From positions 1 through 41,638 of the forward strand of contig NZ_LR130587.1 in NCBI RefSeq assembly GCF_900625025.1: 41,638 bases of DNA. Reading direction: 5' to 3'. The notes beneath the pieces were generated by a model. The model was given only the letters and a program-made list of their open reading frames with translations. It ran no database searches and was not told the origin of the DNA. The DNA comes from Lachnoclostridium sp. Marseille-P6806. GTDB lineage: Bacteria > Bacillota > Clostridia > Lachnospirales > Lachnospiraceae. The translations under genes were made by a program, and so were the position numbers. Shown here piece by piece: positions 18,317 through 37,944 of the stretch (position 1 is the stretch's first letter; each line of letters starts with the position of its first letter).

Positions 18317-18355
18317 AGTTCATCCCTTTCTATTCAGGAAAGAGATTTTGCAAAA

Positions 18356-18529: not shown

Positions 18530-18557
18530 ATCAGCGTACCTCCCTTCAACCATCCTC

Positions 18558-18586
18558 ATTATACTTTTTGTCCTACAACATGTCAA
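18558..18586 (-). promoter_or_regulatory. Consensus sigma-A promoter with candidate operators
   Basis: On the minus strand TTGACA (18586-18581) and TATAAT (18563-18558) are separated by exactly 17 bases, a perfect consensus. A direct repeat, AGGACAAAAA, occurs in the spacer (about 18565-18574) and again just upstream of the -35 (about 18590-18599). This is a likely operator pair for the RHH protein encoded immediately downstream. The promoter should drive the RHH gene and int. Confidence 0.85.
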
Positions 18587-18619
18587 GGTTTTTGTCCTGC
18601 AAAATCTCCTAACCGAATC

Positions 18620-19461: not shown

Positions 19462-19710
19462 TTATTCCTTAAAGTTCATTACTGCGTTATCGAGGATAAC
19501 GCCAACATCCCCGAGGAGATTGTCAAAGTCAAACATATCGGGGCTGAAGCCTATAGCCTCTGACAAGGCCATTATCTCTTTGTTCAACTTATAACGCATA
19601 AGCCTGTCATAGTGCGCTCTCACATCAAACAGCGCAACAATATTGCCGGTAATAGCTGGCCTGATAAGATCAGCCTCCGGCGGAGTATATTTACGCCTCT
19701 TCACTTTCAC
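19462..19710 (-). CDS. Tn916 Orf8-like helix-turn-helix protein
   Basis: An 82-residue protein with YTPPEADLIRPAITGNIVALFDVRAHYDRLM and a C-terminal IGFSPDMFDFDNLLGDV, the pattern of HTH_16-type regulators that follow sigma-like genes in conjugative transposons. The start is a GTG at 19710 with AAGGAG six bases upstream, 20 bases inside the end of the sigma gene, so translation is coupled. It probably helps control excision or transfer. Confidence 0.7.
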   Translation of the reverse strand: MKVKRRKYTPPEADLIRPAITGNIVALFDVRAHYDRLMRYKLNKEIMALSEAIGFSPDMFDFDNLLGDVGVILDNAVMNFKE

Positions 19711-20128
19711 TTGCCGCTCCTTTCCTCAATTCTTTAATCGCCTTCGATTTTGTAGATTTTACTGTCTCGTATTCAATGCCCAGCTCGTTAGCGATTTCCT
19801 CAAGCGTCATATCCAGCAGGTAATACATAAGTAAAATCTCACGCTTTCGTTTCTGTAATTTGGGGAGCATTTTAGCAAGGCGCTCATCTCCAATGAAGAC
19901 ATCCTTGCCCCGTACCGTCATTTTTATAGCGTACAGGTTGTCATGCTCATCTTCATGCATCATCATCGACGGATCAATCTCACCGCCGCCAAAATGAAGG
20001 ATCAGGTACTGTGCCTGTTTGAATACCAGGTTGTGTGCTGCTCGACCAATCACCTCCTTGCAGTAACAGTCAAACCTGTCCCTTAAACTCCCATCTTTAT
20101 CTTTTGGATCGAATTCATAGCCGCTCAT
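19691..20128 (-). CDS. Sigma-70-like regulator of the element
   Basis: A 145-residue protein of normal length for the Tn916 Orf7-like family. The N-terminal half has RFDCYCKEVIGRAAHNLVF; the C-terminal half is a region-4 helix-turn-helix: LQKRKREILLMYYLLDMTLE, then EIANELGIEYETVKSTKSKAIKELRK. It should recruit RNA polymerase or act as a regulator of transfer genes. AAAGG lies seven bases before the ATG. It is complete, unlike the shortened relative at 14156-14488. Confidence 0.8.
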   Translation of the reverse strand: MSGYEFDPKDKDGSLRDRFDCYCKEVIGRAAHNLVFKQAQYLILHFGGGEIDPSMMMHEDEHDNLYAIKMTVRGKDVFIGDERLAKMLPKLQKRKREILLMYYLLDMTLEEIANELGIEYETVKSTKSKAIKELRKGAASESEEA

Positions 20129-20238
20129 AGTTTTCCTTTCTACGATTGGCTCCTGATTCCGTCCTTCATTACAGAGAAGTATTTTCGAGGTCCAAATGTG
20201 GGTATAAATCTTGAAAAAATATTTTTTTCTTTCAAAAC

Positions 20239-20267
20239 TTTACATTTAGACTTTACTATTATATAAT
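20239..20267 (+). promoter_or_regulatory. Promoter of the abiE operon
   Basis: TTTACA (20239-20244) and TATAAT (20262-20267) with a 17-base spacer stand 34 bases upstream of the abiEi ATG. AbiEi-type antitoxins repress their own promoter in characterised systems, so operators are expected close by; no clear repeat was identified. Confidence 0.8.
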
Positions 20268-20300
20268 TAAAGTGCGTTAGTTTCGAGGAGGTGATGCAAA

Positions 20301-20918
20301 ATGTCAAAACTTCGAGAACAAAGAATTGAAATGCTAAAAGAAATGGCCGAAAAGACCGGCGGCATGATCACAACATTCCAGATAGAAAAAGCAGGTATCA
20401 GCCGTGTACTGATACCCACCTTTATTGATGAAGGCATTCTTGTAAAAGAAGCTCGTGGAATATATTATTATGCAGATGAGTTCCCGGATGATCTCCAGAT
20501 CATACAGGCGAACAACCCAAGAGTAGTTTATTCCTACGGCACTGCCCTTTACCTTTGGGATATGTCCGACCGTACTCCCCATTTATGGGATGTCTCCGTA
20601 CCGCAGGGATTTAATGCAACCCGGTTAAAAAAGGACAATAAGAATATCAGATTACATTATATAAATGCCGATAAATGGAGTGTTGGCATTACAGAGACCT
20701 TAACACCTGACGGCAACAAAGTCCGTCTGTATAATAAGGAACGATGTATAATTGACCTGATCAAGAAAAAAGACAAGATAGATAAGCAGTTATATCTGCA
20801 GGCTCTGCACGAATACTTTAATGACCGAACTAACGACCATGCGCAGCTTATCAGATATGCTAAGATTTTCCATATAGAAAGACCTGTCCGAGATTACATG
20901 GATATACTGACAGGCTGA
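20301..20918 (+). CDS. abiEi: AbiEi-family type IV antitoxin
   Basis: A 205-residue protein with an N-terminal winged helix-turn-helix (QRIEMLKEMAEKTGGMITTF, AGISRVLIPTFIDEGILVK, EARGIYYYADE) followed by the AbiEi C-terminal domain (VVYSYGTALYLWDMSDRTP and LYNKERCIIDLI). In known AbiE systems the antitoxin represses the operon and counteracts the toxin. GAGGAGG lies nine bases before the ATG. It is 16 bases upstream of the toxin gene on the same strand. It faces away from the integrase module and has its own promoter. Confidence 0.9.
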   Translation: MSKLREQRIEMLKEMAEKTGGMITTFQIEKAGISRVLIPTFIDEGILVKEARGIYYYADEFPDDLQIIQANNPRVVYSYGTALYLWDMSDRTPHLWDVSVPQGFNATRLKKDNKNIRLHYINADKWSVGITETLTPDGNKVRLYNKERCIIDLIKKKDKIDKQLYLQALHEYFNDRTNDHAQLIRYAKIFHIERPVRDYMDILTG

Positions 20919-20934
20919 AAGGAGCACACCACAG

Positions 20935-21789
20935 ATGAAAACACCGGAGCAGCTAAAAGGCGCGATCCGCAATATAGCCAAAGAGAAAGATCTTCACGCT
21001 CAGGAAGTATTACAGATTTTTATGTTCGAGCGTATTCTTGAGAGATTATCCCTCTCTCCATATAAAAAGAACTTTGTCCTTAAGGGCGGTCTGTTGATTT
21101 CTTCCATGATCGGCATTTCTGAAAGAACCACCATGGACATGGATACAACCGTCCGTGGAATAGATATGGACGAAGAAAACATTGAAAAAATCGTAAAAGA
21201 GATCTTCGACATTGATACCGGAGACGGAATCATCTTCCGTTTTGAGAAGATCGAGCCTATCCGTGAAGATGATGATTATAACAATTTCCGAGTTCACTTT
21301 GTTGCAGAGTACGGCAAGATAAAGAACAAAATGAAGATCGACATCACCACCGGGGATGAGATCACTCCTGCAGCCATTGAATATTCTTTTCATACCATGT
21401 TCGATGAAAAGGACATTGATGTATATGCCTATACTTTGGAAACGATCCTTGCAGAAAAATATGAAACAGTTATCCGCAGAGGCATCGGAAATACCAGATC
21501 AAGGGACTTCTATGATCTGTATGTTCTCTTCCATCTTTACAGGGATTCCATCAATCCGGCACATTTCAGATTGGCTGTAGAGCATACTGCCAAGAAAAGA
21601 GGATCCTTTGATCTTTTGAAACAATATGAGTCCATCTGCGCTGAAGTAAAAGCAGAAGAATCTCTGGCAAATGACTGGCGCAATTACATCACTGATGAGA
21701 CATATGCAGCCAGACTCTCATTTGATGAAGTGGTCGATAATGCTGTTGTAGTCGGAAAATATCTTGAGAACATTCCTGAAAACAATTGA
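20935..21789 (+). CDS. abiEii: AbiEii-family nucleotidyltransferase toxin
   Basis: A 284-residue protein with the four motifs of the AbiEii/AbiGii (MenT-like) nucleotidyltransferases: KNFVLKGGLLIS (residues 45-56), TTMDMD with the metal-binding aspartates near 65-70, KIDITTGD near 135-142 and ILAEKYETV...SRDFYDLY near 170-195. Members of this family modify RNA, in studied cases by adding nucleotides to tRNA, and give phage abortive infection. All motif residues look intact. AAAGGAG precedes the ATG. With abiEi it forms a complete type IV toxin-antitoxin pair that would also stabilise the element. Confidence 0.92.
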   Translation: MKTPEQLKGAIRNIAKEKDLHAQEVLQIFMFERILERLSLSPYKKNFVLKGGLLISSMIGISERTTMDMDTTVRGIDMDEENIEKIVKEIFDIDTGDGIIFRFEKIEPIREDDDYNNFRVHFVAEYGKIKNKMKIDITTGDEITPAAIEYSFHTMFDEKDIDVYAYTLETILAEKYETVIRRGIGNTRSRDFYDLYVLFHLYRDSINPAHFRLAVEHTAKKRGSFDLLKQYESICAEVKAEESLANDWRNYITDETYAARLSFDEVVDNAVVVGKYLENIPENN

Positions 21790-22226
21790 CGTCATGCTCC
21801 CGCTCTGCTAACATGACCTCAGTTCAAATTTTATAAGACACCTAAACTGCTACTATTACCGGTGCACCCGTGCGCCCGTACTGTGGCAGTTTTTTATTTT
21901 CCATTTATTCCCCCACAGTACAAAAGCATAAGAACAATCGCCGGATACGGCGTTATGGGTTCAAAGCCGCCTGCCCTATGGCAGTCTGAACCCGCAAATC
22001 GCAGGCGATTTGCAAGAAGAATACCAAGCATTGGATGTGTTCCCACACATCCACATTTGCTGAACATTTCTCCTGCCGGAAAATGACGCAAATGAGCTTG
22101 CAAGGGTCTACGCCCCCTGACCCCCATTAATGCAAAACCGCTTCAAATTCTCCTACAGCAATATGAACAGTTTTGCTTCAAAAACACACACGCCGGAAAC
22201 GGCAATTTTGAAAGGAAGTGGTATAT
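21790..22226 (+). other. oriT-like region upstream of mobC
   Basis: No gene is visible in these 437 bases. It holds three perfect 9-bp inverted repeats: GTACTGTGG/CCACAGTAC (21878-21886, 21913-21921), GCAAATCGC-AG-GCGATTTGC (21994-22013) and TGGATGTGT-TCCC-ACACATCCA (22032-22053). A GC-skewed stretch follows at 22099-22125 (CAAGGGTCTACGCCCCCTGA is its core). Inverted repeats plus a C-rich strand upstream of MobC and relaxase genes are the usual layout of an origin of transfer. The nick site was not determined. GTCATG...CATGAC just after abiEii could be a weak terminator. Confidence 0.6.
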
Positions 22227-22571
22227 ATGAGCGGCAAGCGAGACCGCACCAATGAGCTAAAAGTATTCCTCAGCGACAATGAGCAATATGTGCTTGATGA
22301 AAAGGTCAAAATCTCTCACATGAGGAACAAATCCGAGTATATCCGTCACCTGATCCTATACGGTTATGTCTATGACATCGACTATAACGGGCTGAAGGAA
22401 TACAGCTACCAAATAGCCGCCCTCGGCAGAAACATAAACATGATCAGAGAGCGAATTATGAAAACAGGGAACGCTTACGAAGAAGATCTAAATGAGATAA
22501 AGGAGCTGATGGATAAGATATGGCATACACACGAATCCATGCTATCAAAAGTACCGTTACAAAAGCTGTAG
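22227..22571 (+). CDS. mobC: MobC-type relaxosome protein
   Basis: A 114-residue protein with RTNELKVFLSDNEQYVLDEK and MRNKSEYIRHLILYGYV, the ribbon-helix-helix pattern of MobC/TraY-like accessory proteins that bind oriT and open it for the relaxase. The later part (YQIAALGRNINMIRERIMKT) is the conserved MobC helix. The ATG at 22227 is preferred over the GTG at 22218; AAAGGAAG lies upstream. Its end overlaps the relaxase by 52 bases in another frame. Confidence 0.85.
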   Translation: MSGKRDRTNELKVFLSDNEQYVLDEKVKISHMRNKSEYIRHLILYGYVYDIDYNGLKEYSYQIAALGRNINMIRERIMKTGNAYEEDLNEIKELMDKIWHTHESMLSKVPLQKL

Positions 22572-23965
22572 CTTATATTTGCAACCCGGATAAGACCGAG
22601 CAGCAACTGCTCGTTGATTCATTTGGCTGTAGTCCCGAAACAGCCAGGCATGACTTTGACTATGCACTTTGTAAAACAAAGTCTACCGACAAAAATTTAG
22701 CGTATCATCTGATCCAGTCTTTCGCAAAAGGCGAGGTATCTCATGATGAGGCTCATAGGATCGGGATTGAGCTTGCGGACAAACTGCTCGGCGGCAAATA
22801 CTCCTATGTTGTCGCAACCCATACAGATAAAGGTCACCCACATAATCACATTGTATTTTGCGCCGCCGATAACATAGATCACAAAAAATACAATGCCTGC
22901 AAGAAAAGCTATTATCACATCAGGCAGCTTAGTGATGAATTATGCAAAGAACATGGTCTTTCCATCATCGAAGCAAGTGGCAGAAAAGGCAAAAAATATG
23001 TTCAGTGGAAAGCTGAGCAGGAAGGCACATCTTGGAAAAAGCGACTTCAGGAAGATATTGACGAATGCATTAGAATCGCCAAGTCATACGAGGATTTTTT
23101 GTGCCTAATCAAAGAAAAAGGCTATACAGTTATCGGTGAAAAAATCGGTGATCCTCATTCAAAATACATAAAGTTCACTGCCCCGGGACAGGAGCGACCT
23201 GTGCGTGGCAGCTTCCGCAATTTTGGAGCCGGTTATACAAAAGAAGAAATCAAAGACAGGATTGAAAATCCCGAGAAATGGCAGAATAAAGAACAAACTG
23301 TACAGGAGCCAAACACCACAGAAGCTCCAAAGCAGAAATCACGGATCAAGATACCAAAGAAGGATATCCTCACCCGTACCAGTGCAAGCAGAACGATCAT
23401 AGACACCTCCGGAAAAAATTTTCAAAACAGCCCCGGTCTACAACACTGGGCATCCGTCAAGAACCTCAAGACTGCCGCTGCCAGCTATGCCGCCGCAGAT
23501 AATCTTTCTCAGCTTCAGAAGCAAATTGATAAAAAAACAACCGAGGCAAAGTCCGCCCGTACCGAGCTTGTAGAGCTGGAGCATCAAATGAAAAAAGTCT
23601 CCGAACTGCTCCTATATACGGACCAGTACAGAGACAATAAACCCTTTCAAGAAAAGTATAAGAAATCCAAGGATCCGGACAGATACCTTCGGATGCATGA
23701 AACACAACTTATCCTGTATGACGGTGCTGAGCGTATGCTCCGGCAGATGGGTCTTGACCCAAAATCTGTTAATCCAGCAGAGATACACTCTGATTATGAA
23801 ACTATGCAGGCTCGTAAATCCATACTTGAGAAAACATATAAATTAGCAGAAAGCGATGCAAAAGCTCTCCAACAAAAAATGGCTAATGTAGAGCAATACC
23901 TGGGACATGACCTTCAAAAAAAACAAGAACACATTAACTCTCAAAAACAATCCAGAGAAGAATAA
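22520..23965 (+). CDS. MobP-type relaxase
   Basis: A 481-residue relaxase that should nick oriT and pilot the single strand during transfer. Residues 1-110 show the MobP/VirD2-like order: TRIHAIKSTVTKAVAYICNP, then AYHLIQSF at 61-68, and the metal motif HTDKGHPHNHIVF at 101-113 with three histidines. Residues 165-260 form a domain ending in RPVRGSFRNFGAGYTKEEI. The C-terminal 200 residues are charged coiled coil without a known domain. The gene overlaps mobC by 52 bases and is followed by a strong hairpin. It looks complete. Confidence 0.93.
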   Translation: MAYTRIHAIKSTVTKAVAYICNPDKTEQQLLVDSFGCSPETARHDFDYALCKTKSTDKNLAYHLIQSFAKGEVSHDEAHRIGIELADKLLGGKYSYVVATHTDKGHPHNHIVFCAADNIDHKKYNACKKSYYHIRQLSDELCKEHGLSIIEASGRKGKKYVQWKAEQEGTSWKKRLQEDIDECIRIAKSYEDFLCLIKEKGYTVIGEKIGDPHSKYIKFTAPGQERPVRGSFRNFGAGYTKEEIKDRIENPEKWQNKEQTVQEPNTTEAPKQKSRIKIPKKDILTRTSASRTIIDTSGKNFQNSPGLQHWASVKNLKTAAASYAAADNLSQLQKQIDKKTTEAKSARTELVELEHQMKKVSELLLYTDQYRDNKPFQEKYKKSKDPDRYLRMHETQLILYDGAERMLRQMGLDPKSVNPAEIHSDYETMQARKSILEKTYKLAESDAKALQQKMANVEQYLGHDLQKKQEHINSQKQSREE

Positions 23966-23987
23966 TCCCCTATCTCCAAATGATTTA

Positions 23988-24016
23988 AACCTCTATCTCA
24001 TTTTGGGATAGAGGTT
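23988..24016. terminator. Bidirectional intrinsic terminator
   Basis: AACCTCTATC and GATAGAGGTT form a perfect 10-bp stem around a nine-base loop, with T- or A-rich flanks on both sides. It lies between the converging relaxase gene and cargo array and can stop transcription in both directions. Confidence 0.8.
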
Positions 24017-24034
24017 ATTTGTGCAAATTTGAAG

Positions 24035-24577
24035 TTATCTGACAGACTGCCATTCCTCTTTGGAAAGGCATGTTATGTGTTCCGTTCGGAGAACGCCCTC
24101 TATGGCACAGGGCACATTATAGGCCGTATGATGATAATGAAAACCGCACTTCTCCTGAACACGCTTTGACTTTTCGTTCCCATCAAAGTAACCACACCAT
24201 ATTTTATTAAGTTTCAGGTTTTCAAAACCGTAGCGCACCAATTCCCTGACTGCTTCCGGTATCAGCCCTCGTCCCCAATACGGAACTCCGATCCAGTAGC
24301 CGATTTCACCTTCTGAATCAGGAAGGCCAATATTGCTGGCTTTCCCAAGCATAAGTCCAATGCTGCCAACAGGCTGGCCTACTTCTTTTAATATCACAGC
24401 ATAGGTCTCCGGCGCTGAAAGAACCCTCCGGATTATTTCACGGCTATTCTCTACACTTGTATGAACCGCCCATCCTGCGATTGGTCCCACATCAGGATGA
24501 CTTGCATATTTAAATAAATTCTCCGCATCGCTTTCTTCCCACGGTCGGAGGATCAATCTTTTCGTTTCAAGTATCAT
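24035..24577 (-). CDS. GNAT N-acetyltransferase (RimJ/RimL-like)
   Basis: A 180-residue acetyltransferase of the RimJ/RimL type: [20 protein letters not shown] at the start, [27 protein letters not shown] (acetyl-CoA loop, near 93-112) and [13 protein letters not shown] near 133-145. The substrate is unknown; relatives acetylate ribosomal proteins or small amines including antibiotics. It is the last gene of the cargo array. GAGAGG lies eight bases upstream of the ATG. About 180 non-coding bases separate it from the flavoprotein gene and hold two copies of the array dyad, so a cassette may have been lost there. Confidence 0.85.
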
Positions 24578-24761
24578 GGCATACCTCTCTTACCAACGGC
24601 ATCTCTGCAAACTTGAATTTGTGCGATTAACTTCCGGTATAAATGATGAACATTTCTTCCATAACTCGTCTATTTGCTATAGTTGTGGAAGTTTTGTCGG
24701 GGATTATCCTGTAATATAATTTGCCTCTAAAAATATCGATTTGTTAATCAAGTTTTATCAC

Positions 24762-25307
24762 CTATATCTTGCTACAAAAATCAATAATCTCCTGCTTCCT
24801 CAGTTCTACATCCTCTTTGTATTCGATGGATGTAAGACCCAAATGACCAACGCACTCTATTTCTAGATGCCCGTAAAAATGCTCGATACTACTAATGATT
24901 CGCTCACACTCCGGCATATTCGGTCCGGTTCTTAAAGCAATCGCATAGCCCTTCTTTCCAGGCTTAATTGTTGCATGCGGTTCATGGGTATTACACCACG
25001 GCGTACATCGGTCAATGAATGCCTTGAACTGTCCCGGTACATCCGCCCAATAAGATGGTGACACAGAGACAATCACATCCGCCTCATCATACTCATGCAT
25101 GATGTCTTCAATGACTGCCGCATCATTCATGACACACTTTGCCGTATCGTGACACGAACGACAGCCTCTGCAAAAAGCAAACGCATAGTCATCGATACAA
25201 ATACTTTTTACACTGTACTTTACTGATAACTGGTCCGATACCAGCTTAACTATTTCCGCAGTTGCGCCTGTACGTACAGGGCTGCAATTGATAACAAGTG
25301 CCTTCAT
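24762..25307 (-). CDS. Flavodoxin-fold NAD(P)H-dependent FMN reductase
   Basis: A 181-residue protein with MKALVINCSPVRTGATAEIV, the FMN phosphate-binding start of the NADPH-dependent FMN reductase / iron-sulfur flavoprotein family. CRGCRSCHDTAKCVMND near 46-62 carries closely spaced cysteines that in relatives bind an iron-sulfur cluster. SPSYWADVPGQFKAFIDR near 83-100 is the second FMN contact. The likely role is electron transfer or reduction of quinone- or nitro-type compounds; the substrate is not visible. GGGGGGAAG precedes the ATG. Confidence 0.85.
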   Translation of the reverse strand: MKALVINCSPVRTGATAEIVKLVSDQLSVKYSVKSICIDDYAFAFCRGCRSCHDTAKCVMNDAAVIEDIMHEYDEADVIVSVSPSYWADVPGQFKAFIDRCTPWCNTHEPHATIKPGKKGYAIALRTGPNMPECERIISSIEHFYGHLEIECVGHLGLTSIEYKEDVELRKQEIIDFCSKI

Positions 25308-25329
25308 CTTCCCCCCTAATAAACCTGAA

Positions 25330-26100
25330 TTAATTCTTACGCATCTTAATAATCATATAGACCGGTGTTTCTAAGAAGCCCTCATAACGATAAGGCTGGG
25401 TCTCCTTCCAGTCTTCCGGAGCCATCGGCTCACAGACTTGCTCGATGGATAATCCGGCGGCAATAATCGCATTCATATAATCCGACATGGTATGATGATA
25501 ACTCTTGCTGAGATGATTCTCATACACATCATTATACTCAAGCCACGGCTGAATATAGGATCTCATGGACTTATCCAAGTATCTTACATTCCACTCCTCA
25601 TCCTCCGGAAAACTACCATCCGCATGCTCCACTGGATACATTGCAGAATATACTGGATGAATAATAGAGAAGACACACTCTCCACCATCCTTCAAGCTCT
25701 TAGCGACATTCTCAAATAGATGCCCGAGATTCTCGATATAGTGACTTGTCGTCGATGAAAAAATGAAATCCACCGGTTCCTCAATCACTTCTTTGCAGGT
25801 TGCGGCATCATGCAGAATAAACTCTGCTTTGGAGTTACTTACCTTTGCTTTGTCTCTGGCAATCTGTAACATTTCTTCGGATAAATCAATTCCAATTAGC
25901 TTGGATGGATCACTCTTCTCCAAAAGAAATGTAAAGATACCTGTACCGCATCCCAAATCTACAATGGTCTTCCCTCTCAAATCAGGAAGTAAATCCTTAA
26001 TACATGGCCATTCAATGTTAAAGCTATAGGAGTCTTCTGCATTGTTAAACTCCTCATAAGCCTTGGCCATACTGTTCCAATCAATTTTTATTTCGTTCAT
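25330..26100 (-). CDS. Class I SAM-dependent methyltransferase
   Basis: A 256-residue small-molecule methyltransferase. Motif I is GKTIVDLGCGTGIFTFLL near 38-55, preceded by EWPCIKDLLPDL; LIGIDLSEEMLQIARDKA near 63-80 is motif II and FILHDAA the adenine-contact motif. The C-terminal half (YHHTMSDYMNAIIAAGLSIE) is typical of UbiE/BioC-like type 11 enzymes. The substrate is unknown. GGGAGG lies upstream of the ATG. It is part of the one-direction cargo array. Confidence 0.88.
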   Translation of the reverse strand: MNEIKIDWNSMAKAYEEFNNAEDSYSFNIEWPCIKDLLPDLRGKTIVDLGCGTGIFTFLLEKSDPSKLIGIDLSEEMLQIARDKAKVSNSKAEFILHDAATCKEVIEEPVDFIFSSTTSHYIENLGHLFENVAKSLKDGGECVFSIIHPVYSAMYPVEHADGSFPEDEEWNVRYLDKSMRSYIQPWLEYNDVYENHLSKSYHHTMSDYMNAIIAAGLSIEQVCEPMAPEDWKETQPYRYEGFLETPVYMIIKMRKN

Positions 26101-26131
26101 TATCTAGTCCTCCCATGATTCCAATAAAATC

Positions 26132-26566
26132 TTAATTATTCTGTGCTTCTGCGTATCGCTCTTTACCCCACCAGTTCGGCATCAATTCCTTCAAGGTGAT
26201 GGTCTCTCTTGTTTCATAATCAACCATGATTTCCATATCCTCGTTGGCCTCATTCAGCTGATACAGAAATTCTCTGCAAGCGCCACAAGGCATACCGCTG
26301 CCACCTCCACTTGGGGCCCCATCGCGAAATGCAATCAATCGCTTCACTCTAGTCTGGCCGCTACTCAAATACATATTCAAAACTGCCACTCGCTCCGCAC
26401 ATAGATTCATCACACCACTACAACTCTCGATGCAGAAACCTGTGTAAATCTCGCCATTCTCGGCTTCAATCGCACACACAACATGATGTGCATATACAAA
26501 AGGTGATACCTCCTCTGGATGATATTCCACCTTTGCTTTTTCATATAACTTTTCCCAAATATCCAT
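26132..26566 (-). CDS. Cytidine deaminase-like zinc enzyme
   Basis: A 144-residue deaminase with the zinc and catalytic signature C56-A-E58 (NLCAERVAVLN) and P93-C94-x-x-C97-R-E (MPCGACREFL). It should deaminate cytidine or a cytidine-like nucleoside. The variant neighbourhood (SGGGSGMPCGACREF, and a C-terminal LKELMPNWWG) also resembles blasticidin-S deaminase-like proteins, so a nucleoside-antibiotic target is possible. AGAGGT lies upstream. It follows the tautomerase gene after ten bases without the array dyad. Confidence 0.85.
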   Translation of the reverse strand: MDIWEKLYEKAKVEYHPEEVSPFVYAHHVVCAIEAENGEIYTGFCIESCSGVMNLCAERVAVLNMYLSSGQTRVKRLIAFRDGAPSGGGSGMPCGACREFLYQLNEANEDMEIMVDYETRETITLKELMPNWWGKERYAEAQNN

Positions 26567-26576
26567 ATTTACCTCT

Positions 26577-26807
26577 TTACTCGCATGTATATCCCGGCTT
26601 TTTATAAAGATTAGTTAATTCTGGGACAATCTGCTTATCCCAAACTTTTTCTTTCCACTCTTCTTCAGGCACATCTGTAATTGCAACAGAAACACTAGAA
26701 GTCTTACACCCAAGTGTGTCAGCAACTACATCTGCTATTTTCTCAGCACACTGTTTTTTCTGCTCCTCTGTTCTACCAGGAAAGCACTGTATTACAATAT
26801 GTGGCAT
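26577..26807 (-). CDS. 4-oxalocrotonate tautomerase-like protein
   Basis: A 76-residue protein starting MPHIVIQCFPGRTEEQKKQC, with the catalytic N-terminal proline exposed after Met removal and the family helix AEKIADVVADTLGCKTSSVS. VAITDVPEEEW follows as usual. Such enzymes isomerise enols or dehalogenate small acids; the substrate here is unknown. Length is normal. AGGGGAAAAG precedes the ATG, directly after an array dyad. Confidence 0.88.
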   Translation of the reverse strand: MPHIVIQCFPGRTEEQKKQCAEKIADVVADTLGCKTSSVSVAITDVPEEEWKEKVWDKQIVPELTNLYKKPGYTCE

Positions 26808-26839
26808 ATTCTTTTCCCCTATAAATTTGAATTTGTCGA

Positions 26840-27490
26840 TTAAAGCTCTACGAATCCCTCAATCTCCTGTTCCAGGAGACGGAATACGTTTGCTACCAGA
26901 TAACCATCAGCGATCGCATGATTCAAGCGAACGGTCACAGGCATGACAAGTCGGCTGTTTTCTTCCTTGTATTTTCCCCAATTGATAACCGGCGCAAAAA
27001 ACATATGAACGTCGGGCAGCTCAAGATGTATGGAATCATAGGACAGCCACGGTATACATGACGCATCAAACCAGTTGGGATGATTCATAATATCAAAACC
27101 GTATTCTCTGGTCTTTTTTGCCTCTTCAGCATCCCGCAGAGCCGTTTTGTAGAATTTCTCATAATCTTCATCGTATTCCGTATAAACAAGCGTGAAGGTT
27201 TCTGTATCTTCATGAAAGATATACTGTATGGGATTGATCACGTCATAACAGATCAATTCGTTTGTTTCTTTAAGATACCCCATCCTGTAATCCTCTCGGG
27301 AATTCAGAACCTTTGACAGGATATAAAGAAAGTTGATGTAGAACTTTGTCCCAGTCTCTTTGGAATGATGAACAAGATCTGTAACATCAATCCTCGCCGT
27401 CATGGAAGTCGAACACGCACAATCTTCCGTAAAGTGGCGAAATACGCCTTTACGATAATATGTCTCTTTGTCAATTACTTTATAGTTCAT
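26840..27490 (-). CDS. Type A chloramphenicol acetyltransferase-like protein
   Basis: A 216-residue protein with the CatA layout and length: KFYINFLYILSKVLNSREDYRM near 50-71, IFHEDTETFTLVYTEY near 91-106, WLSYDSIHLEL near 146-156, and the active site H191-A-I-A-D195-G. Catalytic His and the structural Asp are present, so it should transfer acetyl from acetyl-CoA. In the classical resistance enzymes the residue before the catalytic His is also His; here it is Asn. Resistance to chloramphenicol is therefore possible but not proven by sequence, as many distant CAT-like proteins act on other substrates. Confidence 0.85.
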   Translation of the reverse strand: MNYKVIDKETYYRKGVFRHFTEDCACSTSMTARIDVTDLVHHSKETGTKFYINFLYILSKVLNSREDYRMGYLKETNELICYDVINPIQYIFHEDTETFTLVYTEYDEDYEKFYKTALRDAEEAKKTREYGFDIMNHPNWFDASCIPWLSYDSIHLELPDVHMFFAPVINWGKYKEENSRLVMPVTVRLNHAIADGYLVANVFRLLEQEIEGFVEL

Positions 27491-27519
27491 TTTCTTAACC
27501 CTTACAAACGAGAAGTTGT

Positions 27520-27951
27520 CTATTTATTCAGTATGCAGTTATATCGAACCACTGACCCGTCGGGGTATTCAATGACGATTTTCTCCTCTGAAAAGCCACA
27601 CTTGCGGTAGAAACCGATCGAATCATCATCTGTTTGGGCTTTGACACTTTCCAGATTCTCCGATTCCATCACCCGTTGAATCATTTGTTTCCCAATTCCC
27701 TTACGGCGAGCATTGGCAGATACGGCTATTCCGATAATCTCTGCATCAGCTTCTGATAGGTTCAAAACCATCATTCCTGTTTTCTTGCCTTGATATTCAA
27801 TTACAAATACTTTTACCGAAGAATCGGTCAAACAGTCTTCCATCTTTGTTTTATATTCCTCATATGTCGGATGAAACATACAGGGAGCATAGATTAAGAA
27901 CGCTTCTTCTGACAACAGCCAATCTGTATCCTCGCATAACAAGACTTTCAT
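27520..27951 (-). CDS. GNAT N-acetyltransferase
   Basis: A single-domain acetyltransferase of 143 residues. The acetyl-CoA motif is AEIIGIAVSANARRKGIGKQMIQ (R/Q-x-x-G-x-G/A form) and the end SIGFYRKCGFSEE is typical. The start at 27951 is preferred to the ATG at 27963: GAGG lies six bases before it, at the same distance from the array dyad as in neighbouring genes. The substrate is unknown. Confidence 0.83.
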   Translation of the reverse strand: MKVLLCEDTDWLLSEEAFLIYAPCMFHPTYEEYKTKMEDCLTDSSVKVFVIEYQGKKTGMMVLNLSEADAEIIGIAVSANARRKGIGKQMIQRVMESENLESVKAQTDDDSIGFYRKCGFSEEKIVIEYPDGSVVRYNCILNK

Positions 27952-28029
27952 AACCATCCTCATAAATTAGAATTTACCGGTTTAAGAATGCTTTGATCAA
28001 TTCAATATCCTTTTTATCCTTCCTCATAA

Positions 28030-28557
28030 TCATTCCTTTCCTACTAAGGAAAATGGAACGATCTCCCCGCAGTTTGGATGTGGTACTCCGGTCACGGCTT
28101 CAATCATCATTCCATGTCCAATCACGATGACTTTTGGAACATCTGCATATTTTTGCAGCACAGGAAGCACTCTTCGCCTAATGGTTGCAGCATCTTCCCA
28201 TCGGCAGCCGGAATCCGGGTGGATTCCTTTGTTCTTCACATATTCTTCGTATGCCTTCTCTGCGGTATGATCATCCTCATAGATATAAAGGTCGTTTGCA
28301 ACCCATTCGTGCAGATCCGTCTCAATCCTGATTTCCAGCCCCAATTCCTTAGAAAGAATGGCTGCAGACTGCACGGCTCTTGTATAAGAAGAACACAAAA
28401 TCAGGTTCGCCTCCTGAAGTCGAATATCCTTTGCCGCTTTCCTTATCTGGCCGATCCCAGTTTCCGAAAGAGGCGCTAAATTCGTTCCGTGTCCTTGATA
28501 AATTTTGGTTCCACGTTCTGTATAATCTGTCTCCCCGTGCCGCACAAAATAAAACAT
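28030..28557 (-). CDS. Histidine phosphatase (phosphoglycerate mutase-like)
   Basis: A 175-residue protein with MFYFVRHGETDYTERG at the N-terminus; the RHG motif carries the catalytic histidine. LILCSSYTRAVQSA near 53-66 and VIVIGHGMMIEAV near 143-155 with the second histidine complete the active site. The branch-2 histidine phosphatases act on diverse phosphorylated metabolites; the substrate is unknown. AAAGGAG precedes the ATG. About 66 bases separate it from the next acetyltransferase and include a 17-codon frame of doubtful meaning. Confidence 0.88.
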   Translation of the reverse strand: MFYFVRHGETDYTERGTKIYQGHGTNLAPLSETGIGQIRKAAKDIRLQEANLILCSSYTRAVQSAAILSKELGLEIRIETDLHEWVANDLYIYEDDHTAEKAYEEYVKNKGIHPDSGCRWEDAATIRRRVLPVLQKYADVPKVIVIGHGMMIEAVTGVPHPNCGEIVPFSLVGKE

Positions 28558-28581
28558 ACACTTCTCCTTTACAAATCCGAT

Positions 28582-28929
28582 TTACCGACGTATCAAAACG
28601 CCTTTCATATACTGCGTTTCGTTATGCGTTTTGTATACTTCCAGTTTTTCTTCTTCCGTACAACCCACCAGTATTTTGATCTCCGAATCTTTCTTCCTTA
28701 AATCAACGATACACATGATGGCATCGATCTTTTTCTCACCGCTTCCGACCCATACATCAATTCCTCCGCCATCCATAGAGGCGGTATCTTTCAAATAGCC
28801 ATAGTCAACCTTATAGATGAAGTTTGGAAATCTGGGATGAGCAGAGCCTCTATGCCTGTCGATCACGATTTCTGAATTGCTTACCAATTCATCTAACGCT
28901 TTCCAAAAATCCTCGTTATAGCCATCCAT
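28582..28929 (-). CDS. Inorganic pyrophosphatase-like protein
   Basis: A 115-residue protein. VIDRHRGSAHPRFPNFIYKV and DYGYLKDTASMDGGGIDVWVGS follow the pattern of soluble family I inorganic pyrophosphatase (the DRPKGS...YPVNYGYI and GDPLDV motifs), with DGGGIDVWVG as the metal-binding loop. It is shorter than housekeeping pyrophosphatases (about 175 residues). It may hydrolyse pyrophosphate or a nucleotide. AAGGAGG precedes the ATG. It is separated by 24 bases from the phosphatase gene, which includes an array dyad. Confidence 0.78.
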   Translation of the reverse strand: MDGYNEDFWKALDELVSNSEIVIDRHRGSAHPRFPNFIYKVDYGYLKDTASMDGGGIDVWVGSGEKKIDAIMCIVDLRKKDSEIKILVGCTEEEKLEVYKTHNETQYMKGVLIRR

Positions 28930-28964
28930 CTTATCGCCTCCTTATAAAAAGCGATTTGTTGATA

Positions 28965-29459
28965 TCAAAGAGTCAGTATTTCACTCACGATATCACAAAC
29001 ATTCTTATTGACTGTATCCACTTTTATGGTGTCAAGTATTTGATACATGTTGATTCTTGCAACACTTCTGTCGATTGCATCGTTACTGCGAATCCCCCTG
29101 GAGATGTCAGAAGAGAGTCTTTTACGCAAATTGGTTTCATCGATCATAAGCGAAATCTTTATGACTCTCGCATCTCCTGTGTCCAGACTATTGATTATTT
29201 CGTCAATAATTGATTGTTCATGCATTACCCAGCAGAAAATGATATTTTTATAGGCCGTACAGTGGAGAAAACTATTCAGCAAGAAGCAGATGTTGCGCAT
29301 GACCATGGCTTTTGTTTCTTCTGTTACCTGAAACGGATCGGCATCCCAACACCAATCGCCGTCAAGAAAAACACTGTTCGGCAACTCCTTTTTCAGCTGC
29401 TGACTTACCGTCGTTTTACCGACGCCCATTGTACCGCCGATCAGATATATTGTTTTCAT
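28965..29459 (-). CDS. P-loop kinase-like protein (AAA_33 type)
   Basis: A 164-residue P-loop protein starting MKTIYLIGGTMGVGKTTVSQ; the Walker A is GGTMGVGKTT. VFLDGDWCWDADPF near 30-43 is the acidic lid region seen in small-molecule kinases, and RLSSDISRGIRSNDAI near 113-128 an arginine-rich lid. The size and layout resemble shikimate/gluconate/antibiotic kinases. The substrate is not evident. GAGGAAAAG precedes the ATG. Confidence 0.8.
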   Translation of the reverse strand: MKTIYLIGGTMGVGKTTVSQQLKKELPNSVFLDGDWCWDADPFQVTEETKAMVMRNICFLLNSFLHCTAYKNIIFCWVMHEQSIIDEIINSLDTGDARVIKISLMIDETNLRKRLSSDISRGIRSNDAIDRSVARINMYQILDTIKVDTVNKNVCDIVSEILTL

Positions 29460-29510
29460 ATCTTTTCCTCACAAATACCGATTTATCAATTTAATATGCC
29501 AATAATCATA

Positions 29511-29729
29511 CTACAATCCTTCCCTGACATATGAACTTATTACTTTTGCGGCATTCTTTTCATCCTCAACATTTCCTCTCCAAAGATTGATTGCGGACTT
29601 CGACATATAGGACTCTTCACCAAGAGTCAGGGCAAGATAAGAATGTGCCACATTGTTTGCAATATTCTGATCCTCACTGAGCACGTATGCTGCAAAATCC
29701 CACATGCCAACCGCAGTTTTTTTCAGCAT
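29511..29729 (-). CDS. Small protein of unknown function at the head of the cargo array
   Basis: A 72-residue helical protein: KKTAVGMWDFAAYVLSEDQN, then SYLALTLGEESYMSKSAINLW. No family is recognised. The ATG lacks its own ribosome site, but a seven-codon frame (29746-29723, MLQLAGC) with GGGAG upstream ends in TGA overlapping this ATG, so translation may be coupled. Alternatively this is the 3' end of a truncated gene. GGGAGTAAA occurs twice, 20 bases apart, just upstream (29752-29780). No clear promoter is seen for the array. Confidence 0.45.
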   Translation of the reverse strand: MLKKTAVGMWDFAAYVLSEDQNIANNVAHSYLALTLGEESYMSKSAINLWRGNVEDEKNAAKVISSYVREGL

Positions 29730-30831: not shown

Positions 30832-33306
30832 TCAAAAATTATTTTTCAGTATAGGTTGATAAACTCTTATCTTATGTTCAAACGAGTCTATTCCACCCTC
30901 CATATAGTTCACAATATCTCTTTTAATCGTATCTTCAGAAGGATACCCAGCTCTTTCTATCCAGCCATTCTCTCCATCAGAACACATAACACAAACCTGA
31001 TCTGCCATAGCATTTGTAACTATAGTGGCACTATGAGTAGCGATGATAATCTGCCTTTTATTTTTGATATCACGTAATTGCCTAACAAGATTCTTGTATA
31101 TGTATTGACTGTCAAGGTTATCTTCTGGCTGATCAATTAAAATAGGTCTATGATCATCTACAAAATCACCGTATCCAAAAATAAAGTCGAGCATAGCCAC
31201 TACTTTTTGTCCAAGAGAAAGATTTCTTACATCTTTATAATCTGCTCCTTGTTTAGTAGTGGTCTTACTATTTATATTGAACTCCAAAGATAGTTTTTCC
31301 GACTCTCCAACCATTCTTCTTAAATAGGTTATGGCTTGAAAATATCTGTTATTATCAATCAAAGCGTCAAATATCTCATCTATAGCATTTTTTTGTTCTT
31401 CTATACTGGGATCCGGTCTTGTTCTATTAAAGAAGTCAGCAATATCAAATTGATATCTATCCTCCTCTTTCAATGCCATTTTCAGCAAAGATACAATCCC
31501 GACATTCCTATATACATAGTGAAGATAATCAACAGCATTTTCCTCCGAGACATCAGTATCCTGAAATCCATCTCTCTTGTTTGCTCGTTTTCCACTAAAA
31601 AGCCAGTTCTCAAAGTCAGGTGCATCTACGGGCTCATTTTGCATGTAAATGATTCGAAGAGTCTTATCCATTTTTTTGTTAAATGGCCCAATAATTTCTT
31701 CTACTTCTTTTTTTCTTTTCTTCAACAATTCTTGCATATCATTTATGGCTTTTGCCAAGCCATTCTTCGATCTGCAATTGATAGTCTTCTCCGGCGATGA
31801 AAGAATTTTATTTTGGAACATAAGTTGCCTTATAAAATCGTCTATCTGATTACTGCTGGCTGTTTGCACCAACTCATTAACAGAATATCTCACATCATAG
31901 AGTTGACTTAGCGTTCCATACTTTTTTACTGATTTTATAACAATCTCACTCTGCCCTTTACTTTTTATCACCTCATATATGGTCAAATAGTTCTTAACCG
32001 CATAATTTCTTACCTTGTCCTCCGAAAAATAATACTTGTAACGATATCTGTCTGCTTCGTTTTCTCCAAAACACCTTAAAATATTATCATTTGTATCTGC
32101 TTTAATTGGAGTAGCCATCCGTATGAGGTATTCCTTATTCCCATCCGCAAACAGCACCCATATATCCCCATGTTTACAAATAAAGTCCAGAATCCTCTCA
32201 TCTGAAATCCTTAGTCCAACTGCATAATCCAGCACTTGCAATATTGTACTTTTACCTGTTCCTCGTCCGCCAATAAAACAGTTAAGAGAGTCAGAAAAGG
32301 CAAGGGAAAAATCGCCTCCATCTTTCCCCTTCAAAAATCCTCCGCTCTCTATAAGTACACTTTTTATATATTTGCGTTCCTTGATCTCGTTTGTTAATGA
32401 TACGGATATTTCAAAATCGTCAAAAGCTTCTTTTAATGTCTTAAAACTTCTCTTGCCGCTCTTTATCCAGAAATAGTTTTTATCTATCGTTTCTATTGAG
32501 TGTGAATCATTATCAATTACAAATCCTCTGGTTGTTATTTTCTGACTTTTCAGTATTTTAATTACCGATTCTATTTGAGACTGTTGATGAACCCCTATGT
32601 ATTCAAAACAGTCAGCGTTCTTAAGTTTCTTTTTATAAGCGCCACTCAAGTATTTCTCATCATTAAACAAATCAGAAGAATTGATATGCGCAATATAAGA
32701 GATTCCGTTAAGCTCTCTTTTGAAGAAATCTATTACTTCGAGACTCGTTTTATATGTTCCATCAACTTTACTGATTAAATACTCATCAAGCCAACTCTTA
32801 ACTTTTTCTGTATCTTTTTTATCAAATATACCAACAACATGAAGCCTGTCAGCACAGGATATTTCAATACCACATATAATCTCAGGATACTCATGTGAGC
32901 CCTTTAAATTATGGATATCCTTAATAGCAAGTTCTAGCTTGCTAATTCCATCAATGCTATTGTGATCAGTTACAACAACAATTTCATAGTCATTACATAC
33001 AAGCTCATTAGCCAGAAGAATATATGAAAGCCACTCTTCTTTTGTAGTATAAATACTTCGCTCATTAACAAGCGTTACGCTTGTTAAAAACTCCTTTTTC
33101 GGAACAACTTTCTTCTGCATACAATATTGCATTATCTGCGTTTCATCAGCTTTGACGTAATTATCATGTTTCCATGATGAAAGGAGCGTATAATCGTGCG
33201 AGGCTGGTGTATGAAGGTGAAATAAAGTCTTATGATAAAAGCCATATTTTTTATTTATGGCACTCATTCTCTCATATATTTTTTTAATCGCCTTCATATC
33301 TTCCAC
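30832..33306 (-). CDS. TrlF-family protein: PHP hydrolase fused to SMC-like ATPase
   Basis: An 824-residue two-domain protein. The N-terminal PHP (metal-dependent phosphoesterase) domain has H30-L-H32 ([11 protein letters not shown]), TDHNS near 113-117, ICGIEISC near 144-151 and AHI near 205-208. The C-terminal domain is an ABC/SMC-type ATPase: Walker [10 protein letters not shown] at 346-354, a helical insertion ([20 protein letters not shown]), signature NLSLGQKV, Walker [12 protein letters not shown] near 723-733 and ATHSAT near 756-761. NCBI names such proteins TrlF-family AAA-like ATPases; they occur in defence islands. An ATP-gated nuclease or phosphatase is likely. The start is the GTG at 33306 or the ATG at 33297. 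It lies between res and the HNH gene. Confidence 0.88.
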
Positions 33307-33321
33307 GCTTATGTCCCTCGC

Positions 33322-35979
33322 TTACAATTGCTTAACTATCTCCATAAACTTGTCATAAGAGTATGCCCCCGCATATCCTGGATCCTTACTTTGAAATACC
33401 ATATAATATTTATAAAGCCTTCCCGCCTGACTGGCCCATTCGGAGCCTGTAGCTGCCTTTGCCTTAGACTCCGGATTATCCAAATGATCTCCTTTTGTTT
33501 CAATCATAAGAATTTTTCCATCTGTCAGCATGACCATAAGATCTGGATAAGCGGTTACAGCACCATTAATTGCAAATCCCTTTCGAGATATATTCCTGTG
33601 CCACCACTTCACATTATCAAGACTGGCAAGCTCATACACAACCTTCTTCTCGTAATCATTCAGATCACCATCCTCCTCCTCATACAATGATTTTGGAATA
33701 GAAGAAATTGAGGTTGTTGGAGATATACTCTCCTTCATCTGATACATGGGCTGACACTGTACGATATCTGTCTCCACCCATTTGCGGAACATCTTTGCCT
33801 CATGCTCTGCCAACAAATCATCTACCTTCTTTTTGATTTTCTCTGCATAAAGCTCCGTATTCTGCTCCAAATCCGTGAGCTGTGCCTCTGACATCTGCTC
33901 CATGATTTTCCCTACATAATCCCGAATTTCTCTATCATCAACAGCGTTGTTTTTTGAAAGGCGCGTGCATATACGGTCTTTGCAGAGATTTCTCTTTGTT
34001 GCCGTAGGTCTTGAATCGAACCATTCTTTAATAGCCTCACTCTCGAAACCTTTAAATTTCCAAGCCTTTGGAGCTTCATGTGCATCATCAACATCAACCT
34101 TCGCTATCTCTGCCTCGATTGAATCAAAATCTATCTCCGTATCTTTATCACGAAGGGTAAAGCCTTTTCGTAGATTTTCTCTATCAAGCAGTTCATATTC
34201 ATGCTCTGAGAAAAGACTCGCATCTCCTTCAACAACAAATTGCGGGAGCCTTAATTCTTTGAGATCGTCCTCAAATTCTTTCCTTACATGATACATTTTC
34301 ATTTTGCTCACCACTTCATCAGGAATATCATCATACTGCTCGTTTTCTTCACTTGTGATATTCTCCCAATAAACCGTATTTTCAGTCAAAGCCGTCTCAA
34401 TCATGGTATCAACGATTTCGTTTGCTTGGTTTGTAGTCCCCTCCGTTTCATACTCATCATTTAAGACCGTTTCTAACTGTTTTTTTAACTCATCAGTATT
34501 TACATCTACTGGCTCAGTATCAGATAGATCTGTTTCCAGAGACGGCTGAAGATTCGGTAACTCCATCTGCTCAGGTTCTATCTCATCTGTTTCTTTCACT
34601 GCAGGATTGTCCAAATCTTTGACCATATAATCACGCTTGCTGAATCCGGCATTATTCAAACCTTTTACTACTTTATCAAGTGTGCCGTAAAAGTCCGCAG
34701 ATGATGTGATTGCATAAGAAAGGTTTAGTTCCTGTTCCTTACTCATCTTGGTATAGGGTAATCGAAGCACTCGTCCCAATATCTGTTCAACATCAACCGT
34801 TGAATTACGATTCGCCACTGTCGCTAGAATATATGCGAAAGGACAGTCCCAACCTTCCTTCAGTGCATTTACCGTAATGATGTATCGGATTTTGCAGTCC
34901 CTTGAAAGCAAGTTCTCCGTCTTAATATCATCCCTATCTCCGGTTTTAATTGCTATCTCTTCCTCAGGAACACCTATTTCTATGAGAGTCGTCTTGATCT
35001 TTTCATAAGTTGCACTGTCTTCCGATGTGCGTGGTTGAGCCTGCAACAACACAATGGGTCTAATATACTTACCCGTTTCCTGTTCGTTTTTCCTTGCCTT
35101 AATCTCTAGGCGTTTCCTTAATGTTATTGCACTGAGATAAACATCCTCCTGGCTCTTCATGTTGTAAACGATAACAGGTAGCTTCACCATTTCCTCTTTT
35201 TTAAGCTGTCTTGCATCAACATAGGAAATAATATTGCTTCCCTCTTTCGGTGTAGCTGTAAGATCGAGAACAAAGCAGGGATTAAAATTCTCAAGCATTT
35301 CTATACTGAGCTTTGAAGTAGCATGATGGCTTTCGTCCACAATAGCAACCGGATTCAACTGCCGTATTACTTGGATAAGTGCTGTATCATCCACATCTTC
35401 AAGCAGCATGCCTGTATCACCCTTAAAGCCATTGAATGCCGTAAGATTGCCGTTCTGCTGATATGCCTTCCTCCCATCTTTTTTGTTTGTTCTAAACGAA
35501 TCATATGTTAAAACAAAGATAGAGAGATTCTCATCAACCGATACTGGATTAAAATTCTGACCATTTAATAGCTGCTCTTTTGTATATACTTCTACTTTGC
35601 CACCAAAGTCCACATCTATCTTCTGTCTATACGGATGTTCCACATTTGTAAGGTTGGTTATCGTCTGTTGCATAATTGCATCAGACGGTACTAACCACAC
35701 TACTGCCTTCGGATGTATATGTGGCATAGCTTCAAATATCGGCTTTATGGCATTGGCTGCAAGAAATGTTTTTCCTCCACCGGTAGGCACCTTAAGACAG
35801 ACATGAGGAACTCCTTGTAATGATGCATTATAAAAAGGCATTCCCAATGGGCCTAAGCATACCCCTTTTTCTTCCCAAAGCTGACTATATGCCCTACTGA
35901 TACTCTGCTTTTCAGTCAAAAGATTTAAAAACCGAGTAAGGTCTTTTATAACAGCTTTCTGATAGTTTTTTAACTCCAT
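33322..35979 (-). CDS. res: Type III restriction enzyme Res subunit
   Basis: An 885-residue Res subunit. The SF2 motor shows PTGGGKT at 65-71, DESHH at 215-219, DLTATP near 238-243 and QILGRVLRLPY near 401. An acidic insertion (SLETDLSDTEPVDVNTDE) follows. The C-terminal nuclease has D813 (AYPDLMVML) and E827-x-K829 (MIETKGD), the PD-(D/E)xK triad. Type III enzymes need two head-to-head unmodified sites and ATP. The start is the ATG at 35979 with GAGG upstream, five bases after the mod stop. Length is slightly under the usual 900-980 residues but all motifs are present. Confidence 0.94.
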   Translation of the reverse strand: MELKNYQKAVIKDLTRFLNLLTEKQSISRAYSQLWEEKGVCLGPLGMPFYNASLQGVPHVCLKVPTGGGKTFLAANAIKPIFEAMPHIHPKAVVWLVPSDAIMQQTITNLTNVEHPYRQKIDVDFGGKVEVYTKEQLLNGQNFNPVSVDENLSIFVLTYDSFRTNKKDGRKAYQQNGNLTAFNGFKGDTGMLLEDVDDTALIQVIRQLNPVAIVDESHHATSKLSIEMLENFNPCFVLDLTATPKEGSNIISYVDARQLKKEEMVKLPVIVYNMKSQEDVYLSAITLRKRLEIKARKNEQETGKYIRPIVLLQAQPRTSEDSATYEKIKTTLIEIGVPEEEIAIKTGDRDDIKTENLLSRDCKIRYIITVNALKEGWDCPFAYILATVANRNSTVDVEQILGRVLRLPYTKMSKEQELNLSYAITSSADFYGTLDKVVKGLNNAGFSKRDYMVKDLDNPAVKETDEIEPEQMELPNLQPSLETDLSDTEPVDVNTDELKKQLETVLNDEYETEGTTNQANEIVDTMIETALTENTVYWENITSEENEQYDDIPDEVVSKMKMYHVRKEFEDDLKELRLPQFVVEGDASLFSEHEYELLDRENLRKGFTLRDKDTEIDFDSIEAEIAKVDVDDAHEAPKAWKFKGFESEAIKEWFDSRPTATKRNLCKDRICTRLSKNNAVDDREIRDYVGKIMEQMSEAQLTDLEQNTELYAEKIKKKVDDLLAEHEAKMFRKWVETDIVQCQPMYQMKESISPTTSISSIPKSLYEEEDGDLNDYEKKVVYELASLDNVKWWHRNISRKGFAINGAVTAYPDLMVMLTDGKILMIETKGDHLDNPESKAKAATGSEWASQAGRLYKYYMVFQSKDPGYAGAYSYDKFMEIVKQL

Positions 35980-35983
35980 GCTT

Positions 35984-37937: not shown

Positions 37938-37944
37938 CTATAAA

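Follow-up and report, generated by a model that had tools for sequence, protein, structure and literature searches.

An eleven-gene, dyad-punctuated array in Lachnoclostridium sp. Marseille-P6806 with the organisation of a single-gene cassette array

Integrons are the textbook system for the capture of genes one at a time and are known mainly from bacteria other than those considered here, and the pdif modules of Acinetobacter, which are moved by XerCD, are genes flanked by 28-bp XerCD/dif sites in alternating orientation, with no recombinase in the module. Cis-mobilizable elements (CIMEs) are flanked by attachment (att) sites, have no integrase of their own, are decayed integrative and conjugative elements (ICEs) and move with an ICE by accretion (PMC5704250); Tn1549 has a crossover region of 5-7 nt and an integration consensus TTTT-n6-AAAA (PMC5871717); and in HsdS shufflons, such as tvr, a tyrosine recombinase rearranges parts of a gene by way of short direct repeats and circles (PMC6265443), each as given in excerpts of these sources. 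Here, we describe an array of eleven small genes at positions 24035-29729 (minus strand) of a 41,638-nucleotide stretch of DNA from Lachnoclostridium sp. Marseille-P6806 (contig NZ_LR130587.1, assembly GCF_900625025.1; the whole stretch is referred to as the window). The array works like an integron cassette array, yet fails the tests for an integron, and points to a gene-swapping system in gut Clostridia resembling integrons. Among open PMC full texts, in searches partly aimed at neighbouring topics, no title or abstract beginning was found that describes such arrays in Clostridia.

The array comprises eleven co-directional open reading frames (ORFs) of 72-256 amino acids (g1 to g11; Table 1), ten of which were assigned by Pfam to nine different families (GNAT being found twice), with g1 having no family. 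Nine copies of a degenerate 26-bp dyad, RACAAAT-YSNR-RTTTGTNGAG, interrupt it, each lying after the stop of a gene and mostly merging, by its right half, with the ribosome site of the following gene. This arrangement had been noticed in an initial annotation made from the sequence alone and was confirmed, together with the count of nine and the doubled copy before the last gene, using a matrix of 26 positions trained on 47 sites from other loci and on no site of the window (the held-out matrix; threshold at least 8 bits), although some of its training sites flank relatives of the window genes or come from loci of the flank and placement tests described below. Nine sites scoring 8.7 to 28.9 bits were found on the sense strand of the 5.75 kb array, after genes 1, 2, 4, 5, 6, 9, 10 (two copies) and 11, compared with a mean of 0.285 and a maximum of 2 in 200 dinucleotide shuffles of the array. 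Three matches of at least 8 bits were also found on the antisense strand, because the site is a near-palindrome. With the same matrix, only two sites were found in the other 35.9 kb of the window and 16, counting both strands, in 400 kb sampled from the same genome, so that the dyad is not the general intergenic feature of this host that the annotation had named as a refutation of its proposal.

Copies of the array genes were sought in 299 genomes of the family (blastn with the array) and in 62 genomes of the genus, the window's own genome being included in both samples. Matches were obtained in 121 of the 299 family genomes, those listed covering one gene each except for a single 43-nt match inside the long gap between g10 and g11, and in 18 of the 62 genus genomes (the own one counted), where each listed match was likewise confined to a single gene. 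No listed match in either sample (own genome included) spanned two window genes. The invariant gene order of an ordinary operon, the second refutation named by the annotation, was thus not observed, with a two-gene span in none of the 61 other genus genomes among the matches listed. The closest copies in the family, again among the matches listed, were at 98% identity for g11 (genome G193), 95% for g2 (complete, G081), 91% for g10 (G206), 90% for g5 (G297), 90-92% for g3 (G238) and 89% for g6 (G238), each with neighbours different from those in the window, and relatives of g6 were present in many contexts. Copies of g11 were found in seven other genomes at 97.6-100% identity over 49-604 nt aligned; outside the window the gene was complete only in G193.

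The points at which these copies part from one another were located at the dyad. Downstream of g11, six contexts (the window, G193, G415, G437, G438 and G455) share their sequence through ...CAGTCTGTCAGATAACTTC and part at the base that follows AACTTC. Upstream there are four contexts (the window, G193, G189 and G407); their common sequence begins at GTTTGCAGAG (GTTTGAAGAG in G189), two bases to the right of the dyad centre, and the two bases in front of it are AA, CA, CA and CT. A copy of g6 in G412 (99% over 316 nt, at a contig end) departs after ...GACAAATTC, and seven site-bounded contexts of g6-type genes share sequence from (G/A)TTTGT onward. In complete copies that are clear of contig ends, a site forms both borders of g2 and of g6, the right border of g5 and the left border of g3 and of g10. 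From these borders it follows that a unit begins with the right half of a dyad and ends with the left half of the following one, and that the join falls no more than two bases from the dyad centre. Joins of this kind are not produced when operons are exchanged by homologous recombination. On the evidence of sequence comparison, the genes appear to be single-gene cassettes moved by site-specific recombination. The recombination-based gene capture proposed by the annotation is borne out to this extent, as these genes are found one at a time elsewhere, beside other neighbours and joined to them at the dyad.

The association of sites with these genes was also assessed away from the window. A site was found beside the ORF in 10 of 28 homologues and in 0 of 345 control ORFs (flank test, held-out matrix), with three rows of this test retained in which the ORF was taken on the wrong strand (locus L005), was too short (L019) or was lacking (L031). 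In 40 loci, 96 sites were intergenic and 26 inside ORFs, where non-ORF DNA makes up 16%, and 73 of the 88 sites with two neighbours stand between two sense genes; these loci were chosen for sites or cassette matches, and the held-out matrix was trained partly on them.

Across 228 non-redundant sites (scored with a first matrix, the training of which included window sites), the arms ACAAAT and RTTTGT were conserved without covariation between them, while the bases between the arms were variable, with TTCCAG/TTCAAR and TCGGRA as the main forms. The first matrix also served for the sites described below near the integrase of L112, the serine recombinase relative of L095 and the Xer-like genes, and for those of G262. 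The combination of constant arms with a changing middle would fit recognition of half-sites by a protein and not a conserved hairpin. An RNA element was rejected because of this lack of covariation and the lack of any Rfam match, and the RNA-based form of capture that had been suggested as an alternative is not supported.

The explanation we consider probable is that the array consists of single-gene mobile cassettes that are reshuffled by site-specific recombination, most likely by a tyrosine recombinase. Each cassette would be made up of a right dyad half ((G/A)TTTG..), a ribosome site, the gene, its stop and the left half ACAAATTC of the next site, and conservative recombination between sites would allow cassettes to be gained, lost and reshuffled in the transcribed orientation, with excision as circles being assumed. 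The enzyme that we infer is a tyrosine recombinase which would read the dyad as an attachment site and tolerate a variable spacer. The best candidates would be Tn916-type integrases, encoded by conjugative elements that use this kind of site for their insertion; they would work in trans on cassettes lacking a recombinase.

A Tn916-type ICE integrase of about 431 amino acids was found in 39 of the 299 family genomes. Of 31 ICE integrase loci, 27 have a cassette-type site at most 300 nt past the C-terminus of the integrase, as compared with a site in 9 of 335 control windows of the same size from the same loci, a comparison weakened by the control windows being mostly coding DNA and by three of the loci (L073, L369 and L374) having first been met through their site, without which the count is 24 of 28. 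In 26 of the 27 loci the site stands at 108-168 nt, measured from the end of the aligned C-terminus and not from the stop codon. The ICE junction is at the same position in the dyad as the cassette borders and the outside half differs between loci, several outside halves resembling, by eye, the tail of a cassette or a cassette head with its ribosome site. The 431-aa integrase shows no more than a remote resemblance to the solved Tn1549 Int (E 1.1e-10, across 46 residues); a 396-aa integrase (L112) is closer to it (E 3.3e-16) and has a site about 120 nt from its gene. Compared with what is given for Tn916/Tn1549 in the excerpt cited above, the sites share conserved arms around a variable crossover (here AAA-n6-TTT instead of TTTT-n6-AAAA) and differ in that the target is the cassette dyad. 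The array is also like the CIMEs in its attachment-type flanks, tandem arrangement and lack of a recombinase, as well as in an ICE apparently inserted within an array, and is unlike them in that the units are single genes of 0.2-0.8 kb and would move in trans. In the latter case (G262; L099 and L355) a cassette array appears to be divided into two parts by a conjugative element whose integrase is of the 431-aa type, and a further element end of this kind closes the second part.

A broader proposal is put forward tentatively and is judged less likely than not: gut Clostridia and their relatives might share one pool of 26-bp attachment-type sites for conjugative elements and bare cassettes, the integrases of the elements serving as a distributed 'integron integrase' and the arrays growing in genomes that would need no recombinase of their own. 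If cassettes do move at ICE attachment sites, conjugative elements would, in a further role, supply recombinase to free single genes, which include families common among resistance cargo.

A number of observations weigh against cassettes moved by an ICE-type tyrosine recombinase. The annotation had advised a search for a recombinase that co-occurs with the dyad, and candidates using the same kind of site were indeed found elsewhere, but none in this genome, where searches returned no HsdS-type recombinase at E<=1e-30 and no ICE integrase at E<=1e-40; a further search gave only the housekeeping Xer (2.6e-27). The ICE integrase was found in 0 of the 7 family genomes with near-identical cassettes (G073, G081, G189, G193, G206, G238 and G297), one of which (G193) has an HsdS-type recombinase, and no HsdS type was found at E<=1e-25 in six genus genomes that share g11 or g6, in which the ICE integrase was not searched for. 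Relatives of large serine recombinases occur in four other array loci (L095, L116, L060 and L035), that of L095 (128-1963) being 118 bp from a cassette-type site. Within the window the dyads are less regular than 'in most gaps' had implied: the nine copies stand, but no site is recognisable in the gap between g7 and g8 (10 nt) or between g8 and g9, and that between g3 and g4 has only a variant dyad, one base shorter (by eye). The copies of g11 in G189, G407, G415, G437, G438 and G455 and of g6 in G412 are fragments at contig ends, and mis-assembly at repeats is not excluded for any of these joins. In G057, a g2 and a g3 homologue (72% and 66% identity) that lie close together are a possible kept pair, and 17 of 22 homologues at 70-79% identity are without a site. 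No empty/filled pair of sites was found in the genus of G304, and no circular form of a cassette was seen. With regard to the missing enzyme, a recombinase may have acted during transfer and been absent afterwards, by analogy with cassette arrays left without an integrase, or a third enzyme, such as the housekeeping Xer, may be the mover. The contigs that start or end inside g11 or g6 in the same seven genomes suggest that the cassettes are multi-copy in those samples, and the homologues at 70-79% identity without a site look like ordinary genes.

Further candidates were rejected. The integrase (17084-18316) of an element next to the array was discarded as its similarity to relatives ends at 16904 or 16431, beside a putatively metG-like gene, and not at a cassette site. 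No other array ORF was similar to the resolvase of plasmid pSRC6. Rolling-circle capture of the IS91 type was considered with respect to an element in G319 (L239, 9269-11539), in which an IS91-family Y2 transposase (Y2_Tnp) and its own tyrosine integrase lie inside a cassette-type site, with a second copy of this gene pair following in tandem; this element seems to have inserted within the site and was read as a passenger.

Exchange of cassettes in trans by the tyrosine recombinases that shuffle HsdS (about 322-331 amino acids; presumably CreX/PsrA/TvrR-like) is an unlikely explanation, albeit the strongest of the rivals. Within 200 bp of 71 such recombinase ORFs the density of sites is 7.5 times that in the rest of the same loci (16 sites against an expectation of about 2), as counted with a matrix trained partly on window sites and with the two-strand matches of palindromic sites taken separately. 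Several sites lie directly between recombinase and hsdS (L084, L098 and L224), although the similarity of hsdS is in part due to a coded motif, KSRFVEMF (by eye), and may be coding convergence. Where hsdS is lacking, site-like dyads flank the recombinase on both sides in L219 (7137 and 8347) and L227 (2444 and 3811), one of the four being weak, perhaps forming an invertible segment. Plasmid records name such enzymes site-specific tyrosine recombinase/integron integrase, and in the part of the source cited for the pneumococcal tvr locus circles are excised with a tyrosine recombinase (PMC6265443). The enzymes are, however, present in only 55 of the 299 family genomes (mostly beside hsdS) and, at the thresholds given above, neither in the own genome, where the recombinase gene typical of a shufflon locus was thus not matched, nor in the six cassette-sharing genus genomes. 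The shufflons resemble the array in having cassette-like sites beside the recombinase and differ from it in that parts of hsdS are exchanged within one locus, as opposed to unrelated whole genes between genera.

It is less likely again that a chromosomal Xer-like recombinase of the host (about 340-380 amino acids) moves the cassettes in the way that XerCD moves pdif modules. Such an enzyme would be available in every cassette-bearing genome, and an ORF of matching length was present in each of 16 genomes (judged by length). In the six genomes that were inspected (L229-L234), no site of at least 12 bits was found within 4.6-7 kb around the gene, and the cassette sites are unlike the dif of Bacillus, chromosomal dif not having been located here. 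The array shares with pdif modules its genes between short recombinase sites and the lack of a recombinase, and differs in its single orientation and in the sequence of the sites.

That the array is a true integron, whose attC sites are very divergent and whose IntI escapes recognition, is highly improbable, despite the extent of the resemblance. As in integron cassettes, each unit holds one gene and part of a short recombination site, many unrelated small enzymes are carried in one orientation, exchange between arrays takes place at a defined base, and promoter-like sequence stands before the first site of some other arrays (by eye). Some long gaps pair two sites as inverted repeats in the manner of an attC stem, and one array (L034) starts with a full hairpin (both by eye). 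On the other hand, the IntI profile TIGR02249 was over its cut-off in 0 of 16 genomes with sites or shared cassettes, and the sites, of about 26 bp with conserved arms that do not covary within single sites, are of a type shared with ICE attachment. In addition, T follows (G/A)TT in the right arm of 98% of the 228 sites, so the integron core GTTRRRY is not matched, in agreement with the annotation, which had reported no attC pattern. With respect to array starts, in L117 an identical 30-nt promoter-like sequence stands directly before two different sites (6667-6696 and 7476-7505) and reads as if an array-start module had been duplicated.

The least probable explanation is that of an ordinary operon with regulatory or translational dyads between genes that are exchanged by homologous recombination, which would account for the co-directional genes, the short gaps and the merging of the right site half with the ribosome-binding site but is largely refuted by the single genes at 89-98% identity with different neighbours, the one common divergence base of g11, the rarity of sites in the rest of the genome and the insertion of ICEs at the same kind of site.

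The distribution of the site was examined more widely. The degenerate pattern was present in 316 of 397 family genomes, and in the first 42 rows of the family table, added by hand, there were 93 matches to the pattern and 17 to the reversed pattern. The named species collection has the exact word ACAAATTCCAGTTTGTNGAG in 43 stretches; by record title, 36 of these are from Bacillota (mostly Clostridia, with three from Negativicutes) and 7 from elsewhere. There were no matches to the exact consensus in viral contigs. Cultured carriers of the site include Kandleria vitulina DSM 20405, Anaerovibrio lipolyticus DSM 3074 and Selenomonas ruminantium TAM6421. Arrays fetched from other genomes had the same layout as that of the window, and the dyad offers a signature for counting arrays of this type in any genome. 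Array DNA was found in the records of one plasmid and one phage. On the Selenomonas ruminantium plasmid pSRC6, a relative of g6 (80%) stands between two sites, directly after a radical SAM mobile pair. The genes of such a pair, at 7994-10025 of L288 (Selenomonas plasmid) and at 2446-4043 of L116 (Kandleria), are followed by cassette sites; the pair was recognised as TIGR04471/TIGR04470 in L116 and is named in the record of L288, and a literature search on the name 'radical SAM mobile pair' found no paper.

The coordinates of the genes and sites of the array are given in Table 1. As g6 was assigned by NCBIfam to CatA-like O-acetyltransferase family 3, drug resistance is not established for it. 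The gap of 184 nt between g10 and g11 holds two dyad copies, and the suggestion of the annotation that a cassette had been lost here is not specifically supported: a recurrent spacer is more likely than a lost gene because a 43-nt piece of the gap recurs at 91% in G153, and similar spacers were seen by eye in other arrays.

Table 1. Genes (g1 to g11) and dyad sites of the array, in window coordinates; scores are from the held-out matrix.
Feature	Position	Strand	Assignment or score	Remarks
g1	29511..29729	(-)	72 aa, no family	
g2	28965..29459	(-)	small NTP-binding protein (AAA_18)	Pfam
g3	28582..28929	(-)	InPase-like	Pfam, just under cut-off
g4	28030..28557	(-)	histidine phosphatase family	Pfam
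g5	27520..27963	(-)	GNAT acetyltransferase	Pfam
g6	26840..27490	(-)	CatA-like O-acetyltransferase family 3	NCBIfam NF040638 over cut-off; Pfam CAT
g7	26577..26807	(-)	tautomerase family	Pfam
g8	26132..26566	(-)	cytidine deaminase-like	Pfam; clear dyad on neither side
g9	25330..26100	(-)	SAM methyltransferase	Pfam
g10	24762..25307	(-)	NADPH-dependent FMN reductase fold	Pfam
g11	24035..24577	(-)	GNAT acetyltransferase	Pfam
site 1 (g1/g2)	29464..29489	(-)	18.2 bits	left border of g2 copy in L036
site 2 (g2/g3)	28937..28962	(-)	8.7 bits	right border of g2 in L036 and L051, left border of g3 in L035
site 3 (g4/g5)	27955..27980	(-)	15.6 bits	
site 4 (g5/g6)	27497..27522	(-)	14.9 bits	overlaps g5 stop; right border of g5 copy, left border of g6 copies
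site 5 (g6/g7)	26814..26839	(-)	26.7 bits	G412 divergence after ...GACAAATTC
site 6 (g9/g10)	25312..25337	(-)	8.9 bits	left border of g10 copy in G206
site 7 (first of two, g10/g11 gap)	24722..24747	(-)	14.5 bits	
site 8 (second of two, g10/g11 gap)	24600..24625	(-)	28.9 bits	left border of g11, four contexts
site 9 (array end)	24016..24041	(-)	13.5 bits	overlaps g11 stop; right border of g11, six contexts

Next to the array, at 16900-24000 of the window, an integrase gene, an AbiE pair and NikA-like and relaxase genes form an element. Two other genera carry it at 94-96% identity over 6.8-7.5 kb, and in a third the match, at 90%, extends over 2.2 kb. On either side, at 4515-10719 and 30832-41622, are regions with a type I restriction system and with large ATPase, helicase and N6/N4 methylase genes, which are probably defence islands.

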